A stretch of DNA of 64,000 bases from Hoylesella loescheii. Lineage in GTDB: Bacteria > Bacteroidota > Bacteroidia > Bacteroidales > Bacteroidaceae. Made by a program: the position numbers and the translations under genes. This document shows positions 4,191 through 52,293 of this stretch, piece after piece; within the stretch, counting starts at the first letter, position 1, and every line of letters begins with the position of its first letter. The stretch is from assembly GCA_021531755.1 (NCBI GenBank), contig JADYUK010000003.1, positions 186,001-250,000 of the forward strand, read 5' to 3'. The notes beneath the pieces are model-generated. The model had not been told where the DNA came from, did not search any database, and was given only the letters and a program-made list of their open reading frames with translations.

Positions 4191-4400
4191 GCGGGTCACA
4201 GGGACAGGTACCTTGGTTCACTCTTTCGGGTCGATTAACCTGTCCCCTATGATTCTGATGCAATTTTTTTTTCCCCCTTATTTTTTCTTTGGTAATATAA
4301 AAAATATTAACTTTGCATACGAGGGATATTTCCTTTGATGACATGTCGGAGCGGATTTTTTATTTCCCAATTGACGGTCAAAGGTCTTATCCCTCTTTCT
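4191..4400 (+). repeat. Dispersed ~205-bp repeat, copy A (full)
   Basis: It starts at GCGGGTCACAGGGACAGG and ends at CCCTCTTTCT. The left half is an inverted repeat, GGGACAGGT (4201-4209) / ACCTGTCCC, resembling REP-type palindromes. The middle is T-rich and carries TTTG (4288-4291) and TAACTTTG (4308-4315), a promoter-like pair with a short 16-base spacer. The right half is a hairpin, annotated separately. Further copies lie at 7025-7228 (full), 7248-7341 (right half) and 7427-7592 (right arm lost). Minus-strand frames crossing the copies are repeat sequence, not genes. Confidence 0.85.
4321..4395 (+). ncRNA. Candidate 75-nt hairpin RNA in repeat copy A
   Basis: GAGGGATA (4321-4328) pairs with TATCCCTC (4388-4395) and CCTTTGA (4332-4338) pairs with TCAAAGG (4378-4384), separated by a symmetric TTT/TCT internal loop. 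The 5' edge of the stem lies 6 bases after a TAACTTTG -7 element, where transcription would start, and the 3' edge is followed by TTTCTTT. Promoter, hairpin and T-rich end together suggest a self-contained small RNA. Transcription is inferred. Confidence 0.45.
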
Positions 4401-4449
4401 TTAATCAAAATTTTTCCTCAAATTCTTTCTTCATTTGATTTTTTTTGCC

Positions 4450-4457
4450 TATCTTTG
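4450..4457 (+). promoter_or_regulatory. -7 element for the structured leader RNA / BACON operon
   Basis: TATCTTTG followed by CAACG matches TAnnTTTG. The -33 region is T-rich (TTTCTT near 4426-4430) without a clean TTTG at the usual distance; TTTG at 4434 is only 12 bases away. Confidence 0.5.
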
Positions 4458-4463
4458 CAACGT

Positions 4464-4816
4464 ATTCCACGCCGATGGCACGTAAGTGCCTGAAGGGTCA
4501 TATCTATAACGATAGATAGCGAAGTGGGAATTCATATATGGGAAAGGCGTTTATCTAACGCAAGTTCTTGACCACTGAAAGCCTAGGAAACTTATCAAGA
4601 TTCGTCAAAGAACCAGGCAACGATAGATGCCCATGTGTATTGAATATATCAGTACATCAAGCTTTATGCCCTTTTGTGTTCATGCAATGGGGTGTTATTG
4701 CTTGTGTGCATGTATTCATATCGGCGTGGGGTCTTAGTTGCTCGTTCTGACGAATTGGGCTATCCTAGGGCCTCAGTGGTGGAGCGAGTGACAGGTAAGA
4801 TTCTCCACGCTTTTTT
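4464..4816 (+). ncRNA. Structured leader RNA or stand-alone ncRNA upstream of the BACON lipoprotein
   Basis: A chain of hairpins with perfect or near-perfect arms: GGCAC/GTGCC (4477-4490, GTAA loop), TATCTAT/ATAGATA (4501-4518), GCGTT/AACGC (4547-4561), GTTCTTGAC/GTCAA-A-GAAC (4564-4613), GGCA/TGCC (4616-4631), TGTATTGA/TCAGTACA (4636-4656) and CATGCA/TGCATG (4681-4712). A long-range stem GCGTGG (4724-4729) / CCACGC (4805-4810), extended by TCTTA/TAAGA, is followed by TTTTTT, an intrinsic terminator. CCACGCC at 4467-4473 can instead pair with GGCGTGG at 4723-4729, so a terminator/antiterminator switch is possible. No known riboswitch class was recognised. Confidence 0.6.
4724..4816 (+). terminator. 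Intrinsic terminator closing the leader RNA
   Basis: The stem GCGTGG/CCACGC (4724-4729 with 4805-4810) is reinforced by TCTTA (4732-4736) / TAAGA (4796-4800) and CTCG/CGAG inside the loop. Six T residues at 4811-4816 follow immediately. It ends 67 bases before the BACON gene start. Confidence 0.55.
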
Positions 4817-4882
4817 CGTATATAGACAATATGTTTTTTATAAAGGTCGAGACTAGGAGAGTCGGCAGACAGAGACATTATT

Positions 4883-5665
4883 ATGAGAAAATTAAAGTAC
4901 TGCGCTCCACTATTATTTGTAATTTTGAGCTTAGTGAGTTGTAGTGAGGAGCTCTCTATGTGGAAACTTGCCGAAGGCGAGATTGATTGTCAGCTCGAAA
5001 CATCAAAAGACATTATTCCGTATAGCGGAGACACTTTTACGATGAACGTAAAGTCGAACACGTCGTGGAAGGTTTCAACACCTGTATGGATGACAGCAAA
5101 CCCATCTGAGGGAACTGGCAGCGGTGTCGTAACAATTGACGTTGCAAGAAGTACAGAATCACAGCAGCGTAACGGGAAAATATCAGTGATGTTTTCAAGT
5201 GATCCTGACAACAACATAGCAGGAGAACTCTCCAAAGAAATGTATGTCAAACAAGAAGCGTATTGGGAGAGTGTGAGAGTAACAATTTCAGAAGCATGTA
5301 TCCGCACTCACAAATACCCCAAGGTCAACAAATATGATGCGGGTTACTCTGTTACATACACTGTCGAGTCGGATTTGCCAGACGATGAATTTAAAAAGTT
5401 GGTGTCAGGGACACATTTACAGTTGAGATACCTGATAGCAGACGTGTGGACTGGGCACTACTATGAATTCAGAGATTATTATTATCTGATACCAGACATC
5501 AATATGTCACGTGGTACACACACCGTATCTAATGACAAATGGATTGTTGCATCAGAACATAAGATATCTGCACACGCCAGTTCATGTGTTGCAGAGATAG
5601 CATGTAAATTGTATGGGAAAAATATCATATTTGCAAAAACGAGAATAGAAAACTTAGAATATTAA
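4883..5665 (+). CDS. BACON-domain lipoprotein
   Basis: A 260-residue surface or periplasmic lipoprotein. The signal peptide MRKLKYCAPLLFVILSLVSC has its lipobox Cys at residue 20. Residues about 45-125 form a BACON domain (IPYSGDTFTMNVKSNTSWKV, a conserved W pair, then the VTIDV segment); the remaining C-terminal part was not recognised. BACON domains are often implicated in glycan or mucin contact, but binding here is inference. The outer-membrane barrel gene starts 4 bases after its stop, so the two are co-transcribed. The gene is AT-rich relative to the chromosome and follows the structured leader RNA. Confidence 0.8.
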   Translation: MRKLKYCAPLLFVILSLVSCSEELSMWKLAEGEIDCQLETSKDIIPYSGDTFTMNVKSNTSWKVSTPVWMTANPSEGTGSGVVTIDVARSTESQQRNGKISVMFSSDPDNNIAGELSKEMYVKQEAYWESVRVTISEACIRTHKYPKVNKYDAGYSVTYTVESDLPDDEFKKLVSGTHLQLRYLIADVWTGHYYEFRDYYYLIPDINMSRGTHTVSNDKWIVASEHKISAHASSCVAEIACKLYGKNIIFAKTRIENLEY

Positions 5666-5669
5666 AAAC

Positions 5670-6950
5670 ATGAAATCAACAATAACAATAATAGTTACGC
5701 TGTTAGTTTGTGCAAGTGCAAGCGCACAGACTGAGAATAATTCAAGATATAGCAATGACGGCACACACAAAGGTCTTGACTTGAGCCTCTCAGCCGGTTA
5801 CATCGGCGGGGTGGGCAGCAAGAACAAGGGAACAGGATATATACCTGTCGAGGCAAGTCTTGGAAAGCAAATCAATCAGAATTTGTATCTCGGATTGAGA
5901 TCAGGTGCATGGATCGGGACTGCTGATAAAGCGAAGCCACGAATACCTATTATGGCAGATTTTAAGTTGATGTTTCCCAATTCATCTTCAAAATCAACTA
6001 TAAAACCAATAATCAATGCCCGGCTTGGGTATTTGTTGAATACCCAAAGAAGTATAGGCGGAGGCTCTCAACATGTTGACGATGGAATGGGCGGAACAAT
6101 AGAGGTGGAGACAGAAGCAGTCAAGGTGCCCGACATGATTACAATGGAACTGTCTCCTGGAATACAAATACCACTCTCTAACACCACAGACTTCATTATT
6201 TCAGCAGGGTATGCCCATGGATTCAATACTGAAGGAGGCGGCAGCGGAGGATATTTTGTCTTGAAAACAGGTGTGAATTTCCATAAGAATGCAATGCGTC
6301 AGAAAAAGAAGAAGCCACGCAGAGAGAAAGTGCCAACCCGTAATCATGGATTGCAATACACTTTTGAAGCTGAAGGAAACTACTACGAAGGACTTGGAGT
6401 GGGTGGAAACTTTGTGATAACTTATAAGTTGAACCCTCACCTCAATTTTGGCATTGGCTGTGGATATCACCAGTTCTCGCCGTTTAAGGACGGTGCTTCT
6501 GAAGACATTCAGGTTATATATAATAATAACAAAGAAAGTTTTGACGGTTACATGGGGCACTCTAACTATATAACTGTATTCGGGCGAGGTGCATATAGGT
6601 TTACAGACAAACGTTTCTCTCCCTTTGTATCAGTAGATGGCGGTGTAAGATTGTACCAATGGCCTTCAGATGTGCCTTATTATGACTACAAATCATACTC
6701 TGACATGTTGGAAAAGGAGAAAACATCCTTATTTGTTTCTCCATCTATCGGATTGTCTTTGCGCACTTCTAATAATTCTTACATAGAACTGAAAGGCGGA
6801 TATAACTTATCAACACAGATGAAAGGACAAAAGGTAAATGATGGTGAGAATCTTTATATTGCAACACGCAGCAAAAACATGTCTTATCCATATCTGTCAT
6901 TGGGCTTCACACATACACTTGGAAAAAGAGGGAAACGCCCATCTTATTAA
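5670..6950 (+). CDS. Outer-membrane beta-barrel protein, paired with the BACON lipoprotein
   Basis: A 426-residue protein with a Sec signal peptide ending near ASASAQ. Alternating amphipathic strands rich in Gly and aromatics fill most of the chain, and the C-terminus ends in strand-like YPYLSLGFTHTLGKRG. A basic linker (QKKKKPRREKVP, about residue 210) separates two barrel-like or repeated halves, each opening with a similar strand pattern, so it may be an internal duplication. No specific transporter family is recognised. Its start lies 4 bases after the lipoprotein stop. Confidence 0.7.
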   Translation: MKSTITIIVTLLVCASASAQTENNSRYSNDGTHKGLDLSLSAGYIGGVGSKNKGTGYIPVEASLGKQINQNLYLGLRSGAWIGTADKAKPRIPIMADFKLMFPNSSSKSTIKPIINARLGYLLNTQRSIGGGSQHVDDGMGGTIEVETEAVKVPDMITMELSPGIQIPLSNTTDFIISAGYAHGFNTEGGGSGGYFVLKTGVNFHKNAMRQKKKKPRREKVPTRNHGLQYTFEAEGNYYEGLGVGGNFVITYKLNPHLNFGIGCGYHQFSPFKDGASEDIQVIYNNNKESFDGYMGHSNYITVFGRGAYRFTDKRFSPFVSVDGGVRLYQWPSDVPYYDYKSYSDMLEKEKTSLFVSPSIGLSLRTSNNSYIELKGGYNLSTQMKGQKVNDGENLYIATRSKNMSYPYLSLGFTHTLGKRGKRPSY

Positions 6951-7024
6951 CAGCGGCATTAAGATATATGAACGATTTGAATAAAAAAAGCGGATTAAAT
7001 TAGGATAAATCATATGATTTATCA

Positions 7025-7228
7025 GCGGGTCATAGGGACAGGTACCTTGGTTCACTCTTTCGGGTCGATTAACCTGTCCCCTATGATTCTGATGCATTTT
7101 TTCCCCTTATTTTTCTTTGGTAATATAAAAAATATTAACTTTGCATACGAGGGATATTTCCTTTGATGACATGTCGGAGTGGATTTTTTATTTCCCGATT
7201 GACGGTCAAAGGTCTTATCCCTCTTTCT
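7025..7228 (+). repeat. Dispersed ~205-bp repeat, copy B (full)
   Basis: Nearly identical to copy A at 4191-4400 and in the same orientation, including the GGGACAGGT/ACCTGTCCC palindrome, the TAACTTTG element at 7136-7143 and the hairpin. Copies A and B directly flank the leader RNA, BACON lipoprotein and barrel genes. Confidence 0.85.
7149..7223 (+). ncRNA. Candidate 75-nt hairpin RNA in repeat copy B
   Basis: Same design as in copy A: GAGGGATA (7149-7156) / TATCCCTC (7216-7223) and CCTTTGA/TCAAAGG arms intact, 6 bases downstream of TAACTTTG, followed by TTTCT. Loop bases differ slightly from copy A while the stems are unchanged. Confidence 0.45.
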
Positions 7229-7247
7229 CCTGACTTCATCACTTTAT

Positions 7248-7341
7248 TAATTTTGCATACGAGGGATATTTCCTTTGATGACATGTCGGAGCGGAAGGCT
7301 ATTCCCAATTGACGGTCAAAGGTTTTATCACTCTTTCTTTT
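7248..7341 (+). repeat. Dispersed repeat, partial copy (promoter element plus hairpin only)
   Basis: Keeps only the right half: TAATTTTG at 7248-7255 (still TAnnTTTG), GAGGGATA at 7261-7268, CCTTTGA/TCAAAGG intact and TATCACTC at 7326-7333 (one mismatch in the outer stem), then TTTCTTTTTTT. That the copy starts close to the -7 element suggests this half is the unit that matters. Confidence 0.75.
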
Positions 7342-7426
7342 TTTAAGGATGTAAAGCTTCTTTATCACAAACCATACATCCCTCCACTGTCTGTAGACAC
7401 ATGTGAGACATTCGTATAAAACAGGC

Positions 7427-7592
7427 CGGGGTCACAGGGACAGGTACCGTGGTTCACTCTTTCGGGTCGATTAACCTGTCCCCTATGATTCTTATTTTTT
7501 TCTTTGGTAATATAAAAAAATATTAACTTTGCACACGAGGGATATTTCCTTTGATGACATGTCCGAGTGGAGGGCTATTCCCAATTGACGGT
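7427..7592 (+). repeat. Dispersed repeat, copy C (3' arm lost)
   Basis: The palindrome half and TAACTTTG (7524-7531) are intact. GAGGGATA is at 7537-7544, but the sequence diverges after TTGACGGT, so the right arm of the hairpin is missing. Probably a decayed copy. Confidence 0.75.
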
Positions 7593-7762
7593 AAAATCAT
7601 GTCGAGAATCGTCGACCCTCTCAATGGTAATATCCTCGAAGAGGTCAAGGCGACAGTGAATGGAGTAATCTTCTTCTCACACCACCGCCCACTGATATAC
7701 CAGAACGCACTGATATACAGGATACAGAAAGCGTGACAGCTCCTTTTTTTTATGCTCAGCTT

Positions 7763-7834
7763 CCGGATGTTCTGGATGTTCCGGAACTTCTGGAACTTCT
7801 GGAATCTCTGGAACCCCCGGAACATCCGGAATCC
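7763..7834. repeat. Eight-unit 9-bp tandem array
   Basis: Eight consecutive 9-base units of the form CYGGAANYY, for example CCGGATGTT, CTGGATGTT, CCGGAACTT, CTGGAACTT. One plus-strand frame would read it as a three-residue repeat rich in Leu, Glu and Pro, but that frame (7733-7990) has no other gene-like feature. Confidence 0.8.
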
Positions 7835-8057: not shown

Positions 8058-9770
8058 TTACTGTGCTATCTCTTTCAGCTGTTCCTCGGCGAGGGCTATA
8101 TCAGCTTTCAGCCTCTCCACACGGCGTTTCATCTCGTCAATGAGAGAGTTGCCTTTCTTCGAGGAGACGGAGAGGAAGCAGATATTGTTCTCGTAGGTCT
8201 TGAGGTCCTGCCTCATCTGGTCGAGACGTCTCTGCACTCTTGTGCGCTCGTTGTCAACGGCCTGTCCTCCACGCTTCGCAGCAGCCTTGATGTTCTGCTT
8301 GAATGCGTCCATGCGGCGTCGCTGGCTGTTTGCGTTCAGCAGGAGATGAATCTTGTCGAGGGCGGCATGGTATGTGTCATAGACGCTGTCTTTCTCACGG
8401 AACGGCACATGTCCGATTGTGTTGAACTGCTCTATGAGCTGCTGCATGCGTTGCTGCATATCCTCAGGTTTCTCTGTTGCGATGTTCTCGAGCTGGCTTA
8501 TTATGTCACGCTTCTTCTGGAGATTGTCACGCTCTCCGTTGCGTGTGTCAGCTGTAGCGGCATTGCGGCGCTCGAAGAATGAGTTGCATGCGCCGATGAA
8601 CTCCTGCCACAGAGCGTCGCCCTGCTTTCTTGGTACGGTGCCAGCCTCTTTCCACTCACGCTGCAGCTGCTGTAGTATATCGCCTGTCTTGCGCCATTCT
8701 GTACTGTCTTTTAGGGCTACAGCCTTCTCAACAAGAGCCTGCTTCTTCTTGAGGCTCTCGGCATAGCGCTCCTTAGCTTCACGGAAATGCTGTGTCTTCT
8801 TCTGGAAGAAGGCGTCGCATGCGGCACGGAAACGGTCGAATATCTTGACGTTCATCTTCTGTGGGGCGAAGCCTATGGTCTTCCATTCAGCCTGGAGGGC
8901 AATAATCTCCTTTGTTGCCTCGTCATACTCTGATGCTGTCTGACACTCCTTTGCGAGCACTGTCTCAGCCTTCTCGCATAGTTCGGTCTTCAGCTTGAGG
9001 TTCTCCTCCTCAGCTGCGCGTATCTGCTCGAAATGCTGTTGGTGACGCTTGTTTATGACCGTGCTGGCAGCCTTGAAGCGGCTCCATATCTCCTCGCGGA
9101 GGTCTTTTGCAACAGGGCCTATCTCGCGATATTCTTGATGAAGCTCCTGAAGCTGGTGGAACGCGCTGACTGCATCCTCCTCATCAGCAAGACGCTCGGC
9201 AGCCTCACACAGACGGGTCTTGGCCTCAAGATTCTTCTTGAAGTCATACTCACGAGCCTCAGAGTTCAGTTTCAGCAGGTCGTAATACTGCTCCACATAT
9301 AGCTGGTAGCTGCGCCATAGCTCTGTGGCGTACTCGGCAGGGACGGCCTTAATATCACGCCACTGCTGCTGCAGCTCCTTGAACTCCTGGTATTGCTGGT
9401 TGGCCTCCTCTGGTGTGGTGGCCATGGTCTTTATCTTCTCAATGATGTCCTGTTTCAGCTTGAGGTTCTCCTGCTTCTCGGCTTCCTGCTCCATGAAGAG
9501 TTTCTGCCGGCGCTCTCTGATGACAGCCATAGCAGTCTTAAACTCTCCCTCGTAGGGGTCTGGCTGTATAACGTAACGCTCGGGGTCGCCTCCATTGTCG
9601 ATATAGTCTTTCAGCTGTTTGTCACGCTCCTGGTTGTGCATGCGGTAGAAGAGGCTTTTGAGGGTCTCCATCTCGTCTTTCTCTGGCGTAACGCCGCTGT
9701 CGGCCAATTCCTTGACACGTTCTACAATCTGCGCCAGTGTCTCGTAGCGCTTCTCTTGAGAGTCCATCAT
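8058..9770 (-). CDS. DUF349 domain protein
   Basis: A 570-residue, highly charged, coiled-coil-rich cytoplasmic protein made of several tandem DUF349 repeats. Each has the W(R/K)xI(G/K)xVP type signature, for example QQWRDIKAVPAEYATELW near residue 135 and EWKEAGTVPRKQGDALWQEF near 385, separated by helical linkers. The family is common in Bacteroidetes; function is not established. Likely monocistronic: a strong terminator lies 3' and nearly 1 kb of non-coding DNA lies 5'. The start is MMDSQEKRYE; the second Met is equally possible. Confidence 0.9.
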   Translation of the reverse strand: MMDSQEKRYETLAQIVERVKELADSGVTPEKDEMETLKSLFYRMHNQERDKQLKDYIDNGGDPERYVIQPDPYEGEFKTAMAVIRERRQKLFMEQEAEKQENLKLKQDIIEKIKTMATTPEEANQQYQEFKELQQQWRDIKAVPAEYATELWRSYQLYVEQYYDLLKLNSEAREYDFKKNLEAKTRLCEAAERLADEEDAVSAFHQLQELHQEYREIGPVAKDLREEIWSRFKAASTVINKRHQQHFEQIRAAEEENLKLKTELCEKAETVLAKECQTASEYDEATKEIIALQAEWKTIGFAPQKMNVKIFDRFRAACDAFFQKKTQHFREAKERYAESLKKKQALVEKAVALKDSTEWRKTGDILQQLQREWKEAGTVPRKQGDALWQEFIGACNSFFERRNAATADTRNGERDNLQKKRDIISQLENIATEKPEDMQQRMQQLIEQFNTIGHVPFREKDSVYDTYHAALDKIHLLLNANSQRRRMDAFKQNIKAAAKRGGQAVDNERTRVQRRLDQMRQDLKTYENNICFLSVSSKKGNSLIDEMKRRVERLKADIALAEEQLKEIAQ

Positions 9771-10412: not shown

Positions 10413-10563
10413 TCAACCGACGCCAAGCCGAGAGTCATGGGCTTGCTCAATGACCGAGGCGCGAAGGAGGAAGACGGTTGTCAACCGACGCCAAGCCGAG
10501 AGTCATGAGCTTGCTCAATGACCGAGTCGCGAAGGAGGAAGACGGTTGTCAACCGACGCCAAG
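10413..10563. repeat. 68-bp tandem repeat, two copies plus a third start
   Basis: Units start at 10413, 10481 and 10549 (the third breaks off after 15 bases). The two full copies differ at only two positions. Copy 2 contains the palindrome TGAGCTTGCTCA, and each junction contains CGGTTGTCAACCG. Confidence 0.85.
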
Positions 10564-21229: not shown

Positions 21230-21379
21230 CCCCACGGAAAACCGTGGGGAACGGTGGCTCTGTGTTTTCGCTCTGTGTTTGTGGTGGTTTCCTGCCCCAC
21301 GGAAAACCGTGGGGAACGGTGGTTTTGTGTTTTCGCTCTGTGTTTGTGGCGGTTTCCTGCCCCACGGAAAACCGTGGGG
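21230..21379. repeat. Tandem 65-bp repeat carrying three identical hairpins
   Basis: Three copies of CCCCACGG-AAAA-CCGTGGGG at 21230-21249, 21295-21314 and 21360-21379, each followed by AACGGTGG and a nearly identical spacer. Period is exactly 65. The array starts 21 bases beyond the stop of the hemerythrin/LuxR regulator, so it lies in the 3' end of that minus-strand transcript. Confidence 0.85.
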
Positions 21380-21400
21380 AACGGTGGCTCTTGTCTTGGC

Positions 21401-51793: not shown

Positions 51794-51840
51794 AATCAAT
51801 TGTGTGTAAATTATATTAATGTGTAATCTCTCGTAATGTC

Positions 51841-52008
51841 TATCTTCTGCAAAGATAGTGCAAATGAGTGCAGAACATGCCAAGCTTGCTTGGGCATTTA
51901 TGCCGAGTGCAGCCTATCTTCTGCAAAGATAGTGCAAATGAGTGCAGAATATGCCAAGCTTGCTTGAGCATTTATGCCGAGTGCAGCCTATCTTCTGCAA
52001 AGATAAGA
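51841..52008 (-). repeat. Tandem 74-bp repeats carrying -7 promoter elements
   Basis: Two full units (from 51841 and 51915) and a 20-bp third start (51989). Each carries CAAAGATA (51850-51857, 51924-51931, 51998-52005), i.e. TATCTTTG on the minus strand, directed at the OB-fold-like gene. Each full unit also has the palindrome CCAAGCTTGCTTGG and GGCATTTATGCC or a close variant. Confidence 0.85.
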
Positions 52009-52230: not shown

Positions 52231-52293
52231 CTTATCTTTGCAAAAGATAGGCTGCACTCGGCATAAATGCTCAAGCAGAGCTTGGCATGTTCT
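52231..52293 (+). repeat. Inverted copy of the 74-bp promoter-leader module
   Basis: Starts with CTTATCTTTGCA (-7 TATCTTTG at 52233-52240) and runs through GGCTGCACTCGGCATAAATG. It matches the reverse complement of the 51.9-kb repeats over about 60 bases with three small differences. It points to the plus-strand gene at 52449. Confidence 0.85.

Follow-up and report, generated by a model that had tools for sequence, protein, structure and literature searches.

What is the repeat of which four copies (4191-4400, 7025-7228, 7248-7341 and 7427-7592) lie near the left end of a 64,000-nucleotide stretch of the Hoylesella loescheii genome (contig JADYUK010000003.1; hereafter the window), and what lies between its copies? 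The original prediction, which had placed the four copies correctly, took them for a mobile, self-transcribing family of small RNAs (sRNAs). We find that the flagged repeat is not a dispersed sRNA family, and that the space between copies 1 and 2 holds a structured leader RNA (4461-4816) that the prediction had missed. From sequence, we read this RNA as the 5' leader of the two-gene operon that follows it (4883-6950), and as one copy of what appears to be a large class of cis-acting RNAs. The joint reading that we consider probable is that 4461-4816 acts in cis as a leader of the attenuator type, while the repeat is a local composite of a repetitive extragenic palindromic (REP)-like element, a promoter and a hairpin.

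Relatives of the leader were found in 31 of 100 genomes of the genus, with G019, G023 and G059 matching in the promoter part only, and a profile built from 28 relatives recovered these together with 20 further loci chosen by blastn (48 of 48), two promoter-only matches (L101 and L102) having been dropped. A model of the 3' domain (R1) matched at E<=1e-4 in 131 of 201 genomes of the family, which represent 24 of 30 genera, in up to 17 copies, and in 19 of 149 genomes of the order (18 of 133 genera), the H. loescheii genome included; in four of these 19 (G658, G669, G697 and G734) the matches are weak only, with E between 4e-5 and 6e-5. Four copies occur in the H. loescheii genome itself (C33, C66, C6 and C44). 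The 5' domain, modelled separately (R2), matched at all 45 loci searched, 44 of them chosen by R1 and one, L186, by a 3'-domain pattern; the weakest of these matches are L184 (23.7 bits) and L183 (29.5 bits).

The leader is a structured RNA with two covarying long-range helices, Pa and Pb. Its fold (4461-4820) is far more stable than that of shuffled sequences (z -8.34), and the sequences of Pa and Pb vary among copies, each copy remaining complementary to itself. Across an alignment (A1) of 43 of the 48 loci, from which L079 (contig end), L082 and L134 (start not located) and L097 and L099 (helix H1 not recognised) were left out, the longest run of pairing with a copy's own partner strand was 7.93 bp for Pa and 7.74 bp for Pb, against 3.39 and 3.73 bp with partners swapped (0 of 300 shuffles). 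The result held for 44 loci outside the alignment, L155 being dropped as near-identical to L152: 7.50 and 7.70 bp against 3.50 and 3.80 bp (0 of 5000). Taken together, 45 named pairs are formed in 91.3% of cells, 26 of them with changes on both sides, and their covariation score is 0.437 compared with 0.213 after shuffling (0 of 500), with slid controls pairing in 38-52% of cells; the leader thereby displays the compensatory changes by which a structured RNA class is recognised. Stop codons fall within 105 nt in 31, 34 or 40 of the 43 copies, depending on frame, and a leader peptide or other coding role is unlikely.

From 5' to 3', the conserved core comprises H1; the 5' strands of Pa, Px and Pb; GCAACGGUAGAUGCC; GGCGUGGG; the 5' strand of stem T; the 3' strand of Pb; GGGC...GCC with the 3' strand of Px; the 3' strands of Pa and T; UCCCACGC; and a run of U residues. 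As predicted from the alignment, this layout is that of a transcription attenuator. The pairing AUGCC:GGCGU is kept in 96.7% of cells and GCGUGGG:UCCCACGC in 97.7%, with one strand common to both, and GUUGCUC can pair either with GGGCAAU (96.0% of cells) or inside the T stem (94-97%). Pa and Pb would be pseudoknots if T were formed and nested helices if it were absent; the alignment is compatible with either. We infer that the leader, while being transcribed, adopts one of two alternative folds. In the first, AUGCC would keep GGCGU from the terminator, with the 5' and 3' domains joined by Pa and Pb; in the second, GCGUGGG would pair with UCCACGC ahead of the U-tract, halting RNA polymerase. 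Which fold forms, and with it the expression of the operon, would depend on some signal in the cell, on a metabolite or on a protein.

The genomic setting is consistent with such a role. The box TAnnTTTG occurs in the 150 nt upstream of 39 of 42 and 39 of 43 loci, compared with 3 of 42 and 3 of 43 control windows. A same-strand open reading frame (ORF; ATG start, >=80 amino acids, <=250 nt past the 3' end of the leader) follows at 79 of 93 loci, against 31 of 93 for the divergent control, in a count that includes the window copy twice (L073 and L176); at most loci the leader thus lies upstream of a gene, as a riboswitch or attenuator is expected to.

Several observations weigh against the attenuator interpretation. 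The proposed switch rests on retention of its pairs and not on covariation, because double changes are absent from the antiterminator pairs and occur once, in one sequence, in the terminator stem; for the set of helices that contains the antiterminator, the number of double-change pairs was reached by 31 of 500 shuffles. H2 is paired in only 83% of cells, and the column counts of Pb are low (62-70%) owing to slippage of the alignment at that helix. On A1 RNAalifold, a program that does not represent pseudoknots, gave Pa, Px, H1 and AUGCC:GGCGU, but not Pb, T or the terminator, and the minimum-energy fold of the window copy contains Pa, Px and Pb without H1, the terminator or the downstream helix Pc. 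The terminator stem, whose loop exceeds the limit of the generic terminator scan, was not flagged by it. Each held-out locus was taken as the top match of its genome, which favours strong copies; the matches of R1 and R2 overlap by 8 nt in L185; and the longest stop-free run has a median of 67 codons, compared with 51 in shuffles. No ORF was found at 14 of the 93 loci, three of which (L076, L079 and L167) have no readable downstream sequence. Nor do the downstream genes share a pathway: among 65 proteins scanned of the 79 ORFs, 14 being left out by choice, ten are BspA-type leucine-rich-repeat proteins, three match LytTR and the remainder are scattered or unmatched.

The repeat that brackets the operon has a different character. 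Copies 1 and 2 are 95% identical across ~204 nt. The two-step stem claimed for every copy (GAGGGATA/TATCCCTC, then CCTTTGA/TCAAAGG) is complete in three units, while copy 4 retains the 5' arm only and, its 3' arm lost, does not fold (128 of 200 shuffles equally good). TAnnTTTG does stand immediately 5' of the stem, and the shortest copy, copy 3, does consist of a -7 box and a hairpin with one broken pair. Equally real is the palindrome GGGACAGGT/ACCTGTCCC in the left half (z -1.90, -3.54 and -2.40), which also recurs elsewhere. The argument that a varying loop and a kept stem betray selection proved weak, with no compensatory change among the copies: conservation of the arms is no evidence of selection, since between copies 1 and 2 substitutions number 0 in the 33 arm sites and 8 in the remaining 171, and between copies 1 and 3 they number 1 in 33 and 7 in 58. 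In the accessible portion of one report, the consensus of sigma-ABfr is given as TAnnTTTG at -7 and TTTG near -33 (PMC7366714). The window contains nine bipartite matches (TTTG-N15-21-TAnnTTTG), where shuffled sequence gives 0.41, and three of the nine belong to copies 1, 2 and 4; copy 3 and the leader itself have the -7 box, and neither is among the bipartite matches. In copies 1 and 2 a promoter of the sigma-ABfr type stands immediately in front of a stable hairpin that ends T-rich.

Self-transcription of the hairpin units into a putative ~75-nt RNA is, on this arrangement, plausible. We take the repeat to be a local and probably recent duplication of a composite of REP-like element, promoter and hairpin, of which four copies would have arisen around the operon. 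It most likely gives rise to short transcripts that terminate themselves, and the 204 nt over which copies 1 and 2 match could serve recombination as homology. An alternative that we judge rather unlikely is that the hairpins are terminator or 3' untranslated-region elements, accompanied by REP elements, and stop transcription in the interval from the operon (end at 6950) to the convergent gene at 8058-9770, the promoter match being incidental. Copies 2-4 do lie between convergent genes and their stems do end T-rich, but a properly spaced -33/-7 pair occurs in three of the four copies, far more than chance would give, copy 1 stands upstream of the operon, and a simple terminator scan flagged no hairpin of the repeat. 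The window contains no tRNA or tmRNA. Just past the repeat cluster, at 7758-7831, lies an imperfect 9/18-bp tandem repeat (TTCTGGAAC/TTCCGGAA).

For the leader, a promoter box on the 5' side and a terminator-like end would also suit a free-standing RNA that acts in trans and always ends at the U-tract, with the gene behind it incidental. This is unlikely in view of two features that lie past the U-tract. The distance from the 3' end of the leader to the start codon is narrow (median 71 nt, quartiles 64-77), and the helix Pc, which pairs the terminator-like 3' strand with an element between the U-tract and the start codon, covaries: own-partner pairing is 4.91 bp compared with 4.18 bp with other partners, an effect that is small but consistent (0 of 5000). 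That test scored 85 of 92 rows, six having no recognised U-tract and one being too short; one of the 85 is a run of N. Together these features suggest that read-through matters, and after read-through Pc may set a translation or stability state.

A further alternative, which we regard as distinctly unlikely, is that the leader marks a site of recombination or gene exchange, where promoter and leader stay while the gene is swapped, and where the structure serves the exchange or the expression of incoming genes. The diversity of the downstream genes is in keeping with it, as is one pair of loci. G004 and G065 have the same upstream gene and leader cores that are 96.6% identical, with unrelated genes behind them; the homology (L192 3344-4749 and L193 3205-4608) stops 12 nt past the start codon and resumes further on, running through a gene that we take to be lon. 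In G053 a related leader occurs together with part of the same set of small genes; the upstream flank common to G004 and G065 is absent there. Yet this is one clear case, and L141 and L143 keep the same gene behind the leader. Recent spread is also argued against by the leaders themselves, because two copies from one genome resemble each other scarcely more than two from different genomes (median identity 0.628 and 0.612). One leader used as query found no match in plasmid and phage collections. A copy is carried by the viral-labelled contig IMGVR_UViG_3300021319_000137 (L186 392-8970), where the genes behind it look to us like relatives of EF-Tu, Hsp70 and a HerA-type ATPase. Elsewhere in the H. 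loescheii genome, the C6 copy (L122 1072-1367) precedes a gene that, from its DPPY motif, we presume to be related to DNA methylases, and the C44 copy (L191 1275-1376) precedes a 220-amino-acid protein with a Cys/Ser-rich stretch.

Setting these alternatives beside the attenuator-type leader, we tentatively raise a wider possibility: that 4461-4816 may belong to an order-wide, hitherto unrecognised class of Bacteroidales leaders, with two domains locked by fast-changing long-range helices, an antiterminator/terminator switch at the 3' end and Pc extending past the U-tract in the direction of the start codon, which would serve as a common expression switch for exported and fast-exchanged genes. 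Were this so, unrelated genes placed behind the same leader would come under one signal.

Is the hairpin repeat, finally, a mobile family? For the hairpin half the term 'dispersed' does not apply, since searches of its own genome place it only within the 3.4-kb cluster: a 99-nt promoter-hairpin query (E<=10) returned the four copies and ten pieces of 14-23 nt from the promoter end. A search for homologues in related genomes gave only partial matches of 19-44 nt in 398 genomes of the genus and 399 of the family, overlapping samples with no more than two candidates scored per genome. Seven plasmid matches all fall on the AT-rich promoter stretch; the sole phage match, a 28-nt piece (E 0.09), and the weak Rfam matches of the unit (gathering cut-off and E<=10) we take as chance, as we do 15 scattered records from unrelated phyla that contain the exact 18-mer of the 5' arm among genome contigs and were not used; viral contigs gave none. 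The arms show no covariation among the copies, and these samples gave no homologues to compare. No terminal inverted repeats mark the unit ends among repeats of >=20 nt, shorter ones not having been searched. At 14 loci of a DUF349 gene compared (L107-L120), with best gene matches in the genus sample of 72-74% identity, no copy of the repeat was present.

Three of the four best partial matches elsewhere (L025 of G178, L189 of G547 and L063 of G103) coincide with a single codon stretch, RYFLDDV-S/A-EWI, in genes that we take to encode ABC-F proteins resembling EttA; the repeat has one extra base relative to this stretch, and the fourth match, L190, falls elsewhere. Capture of a gene fragment as the source of the hairpin was set aside because conserved codons will yield such matches once hundreds of genomes are sampled, and because own-genome matches (E<=10) never cover that part. 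Two further candidates were set aside: an integron attC site, judged by eye against the motifs of such sites, and an invertible promoter, the promoter lying outside the hairpin arms.

The mobile-looking part of the repeat is, on sequence grounds, its REP-like half. Whole or in part, the palindrome also occurs at C2, C8, C72 and two other places on C33, the matches at C72 and on C33 covering 28 nt only, and in four other genomes of the genus (G079, G080, G087 and G190); all these matches cover the palindrome and stop before the hairpin. Only this left half, then, is a short intergenic palindrome repeated around the genome, as a REP element should be, and its copy number is low. Of the guide tetranucleotide GTAG/GTGG of REP elements, GTGG stands, by eye, near the foot of the palindrome in two of 12 aligned copies (own C2 and G087) and in none of the three in the window. 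The linked transposase that was envisaged, of the IS200 or REP-associated tyrosine transposase (RAYT) kind, came down to a single weak Y1_Tnp match in the H. loescheii genome (23.7 bits) with no full repeat copy beside it. Y1_Tnp matches occur in two of five genomes tested, with none in G079, G080 or G190, and the fetched flanks of three Y1_Tnp loci (L072, L187 and L188) contain no full copy of the repeat. Although promoter and hairpin do travel together in copies 1 and 2 (copy 4 being truncated and copy 3 having the -7 box only) and the REP-like half recurs within and beyond its genome, a unit found, among the genomes sampled, only as four clustered copies in one genome makes a mobile sRNA family spread by a REP/RAYT-like mechanism very improbable.

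Among known systems, attenuation leaders and riboswitches share with the leader a 5' position, a promoter box, a large structured domain, a terminator-like stem followed by a U-tract and a competing helix on the same strand; the leader differs from them in joining its 5' and 3' domains by long-range helices, in its covarying helix beyond the U-tract and in having no Rfam match. Rfam 15 gave none at the leader in the window or at five homologue loci, where two weak matches fell outside it, and the literature searched yielded no description of this RNA. Terminator-like motifs of 80-132 nt have been reported from Bacteroidetes in the part of PMC8040213 available to us, and could be fragments of it. 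In our view the leader forms a new class within an established kind of element, that of cis-acting leader RNAs, and the repeat is a local composite of an ordinary sort.

The repeat recalls REP/RAYT systems in being a ~65-nt imperfect palindrome, intergenic in the window and present in several copies, and departs from them in its few copies, in the absence of a full copy beside the three Y1_Tnp genes examined and in the GTGG foot seen by eye in only two of 12 copies; for the Bacteroidetes RAYT/REP subclass 2.6, the available text of PMC6006769 mentions 'atypical secondary structures'. As far as the accessible part of PMC4596501 describes it, the BrickBuilt miniature inverted-repeat transposable element of Porphyromonas gingivalis ends in small inverted repeats, contains tandem units of 23 nt and is present 19 times in strain ATCC 33277; it too is an intergenic Bacteroidales repeat carrying promoters, whereas the copies here are four and clustered, with no 23-nt tandem array reported at them. 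GibS, an intergenic Bacteroides sRNA described in the portion of PMC7366714 cited above as expressed, conserved among species and single-stranded at its 5' end, shares the layout of a short intergenic RNA gene with a Bacteroidetes-type promoter; the putative RNA of the hairpin unit, by contrast, was found in one genome only. On its own the flagged hairpin repeat is a local curiosity. A multi-copy leader in roughly two thirds of the sampled family genomes, strongly covarying and unmatched in Rfam, would mean a further large regulatory class for a group of bacteria in which gene control is poorly known, and is directly testable in one operon.

Table 1. Coordinates, within the window, of the repeat units, the leader RNA with its helices, and the genes behind it.
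Feature	Position	Strand	Basis
REP-like palindrome copy 1 (GGGACAGGT...ACCTGTCCC)	4191..4258	+	fold, relatives elsewhere
Promoter of hairpin unit 1 (TTTG...TAACTTTG)	4288..4315	+	bipartite promoter scan
Hairpin unit 1, putative ~75-nt RNA	4321..4395	+	fold z -4.61; transcription inferred
-7 box TATCTTTG of leader RNA	4450..4457	+	motif match, conserved upstream box
Structured leader RNA	4461..4816	+	fold, covariation, model match 88.7 bits; 5' end inferred from -7 box, 3' end at U-tract
Helix H1 (GGCGUUUAUCUAACGC)	4546..4561	+	pair counts in alignment
Helix Pa, 5' strand	4571..4578	+	pairs with 4773-4780
Helix Pb, 5' strand	4600..4607	+	pairs with 4748-4755
Candidate antiterminator strand AUGCC	4627..4631	+	pairs with 4723-4727; position mapped by hand
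GGCGUGGG, common to antiterminator and terminator stems	4723..4730	+	pair counts
T stem, 5' strand	4737..4747	+	pairs with 4781-4792
Helix Pb, 3' strand	4748..4755	+	own-partner pairing test
Helix Pa, 3' strand	4773..4780	+	own-partner pairing test, pair counts
T stem, 3' strand	4781..4792	+	pair counts
Terminator-like 3' strand and U-tract	4802..4816	+	pair counts
Downstream element GGAGA, helix Pc with 4802-4806	4856..4860	+	own-partner pairing, small effect
First gene behind leader, secreted/lipoprotein-like by eye, weak BACON match below cut-off	4883..5665	+	
Second gene, no Pfam, NCBIfam or PHROG match	5670..6950	+	
REP-like palindrome copy 2	7025..7092	+	repeat comparison, fold
Promoter of hairpin unit 2	7116..7143	+	bipartite promoter scan
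Hairpin unit 2	7149..7223	+	fold z -4.60
-7 box of hairpin unit 3 (TAATTTTG)	7248..7255	+	motif match
Hairpin unit 3, one mismatched pair, without REP half	7261..7333	+	fold z -2.58
REP-like palindrome copy 4	7427..7494	+	repeat comparison, fold
Promoter of truncated unit 4	7503..7531	+	bipartite promoter scan
Hairpin unit 4, 3' arm lost	7537..7596	+	fold z +0.36

Other repeats lie elsewhere in the window. Tandem units of 68 bp occupy 10413-10563 (97% matched) and units of 65 bp occupy 21230-21391 (94% matched). At 51840-52005 a 74-bp unit is present in 2.2 tandem copies, with TATCTTTGCA on the minus strand, and an inverted piece matching it lies ~230 bp away, at about 52233-52290, possibly reflecting a promoter duplication or an invertible segment.

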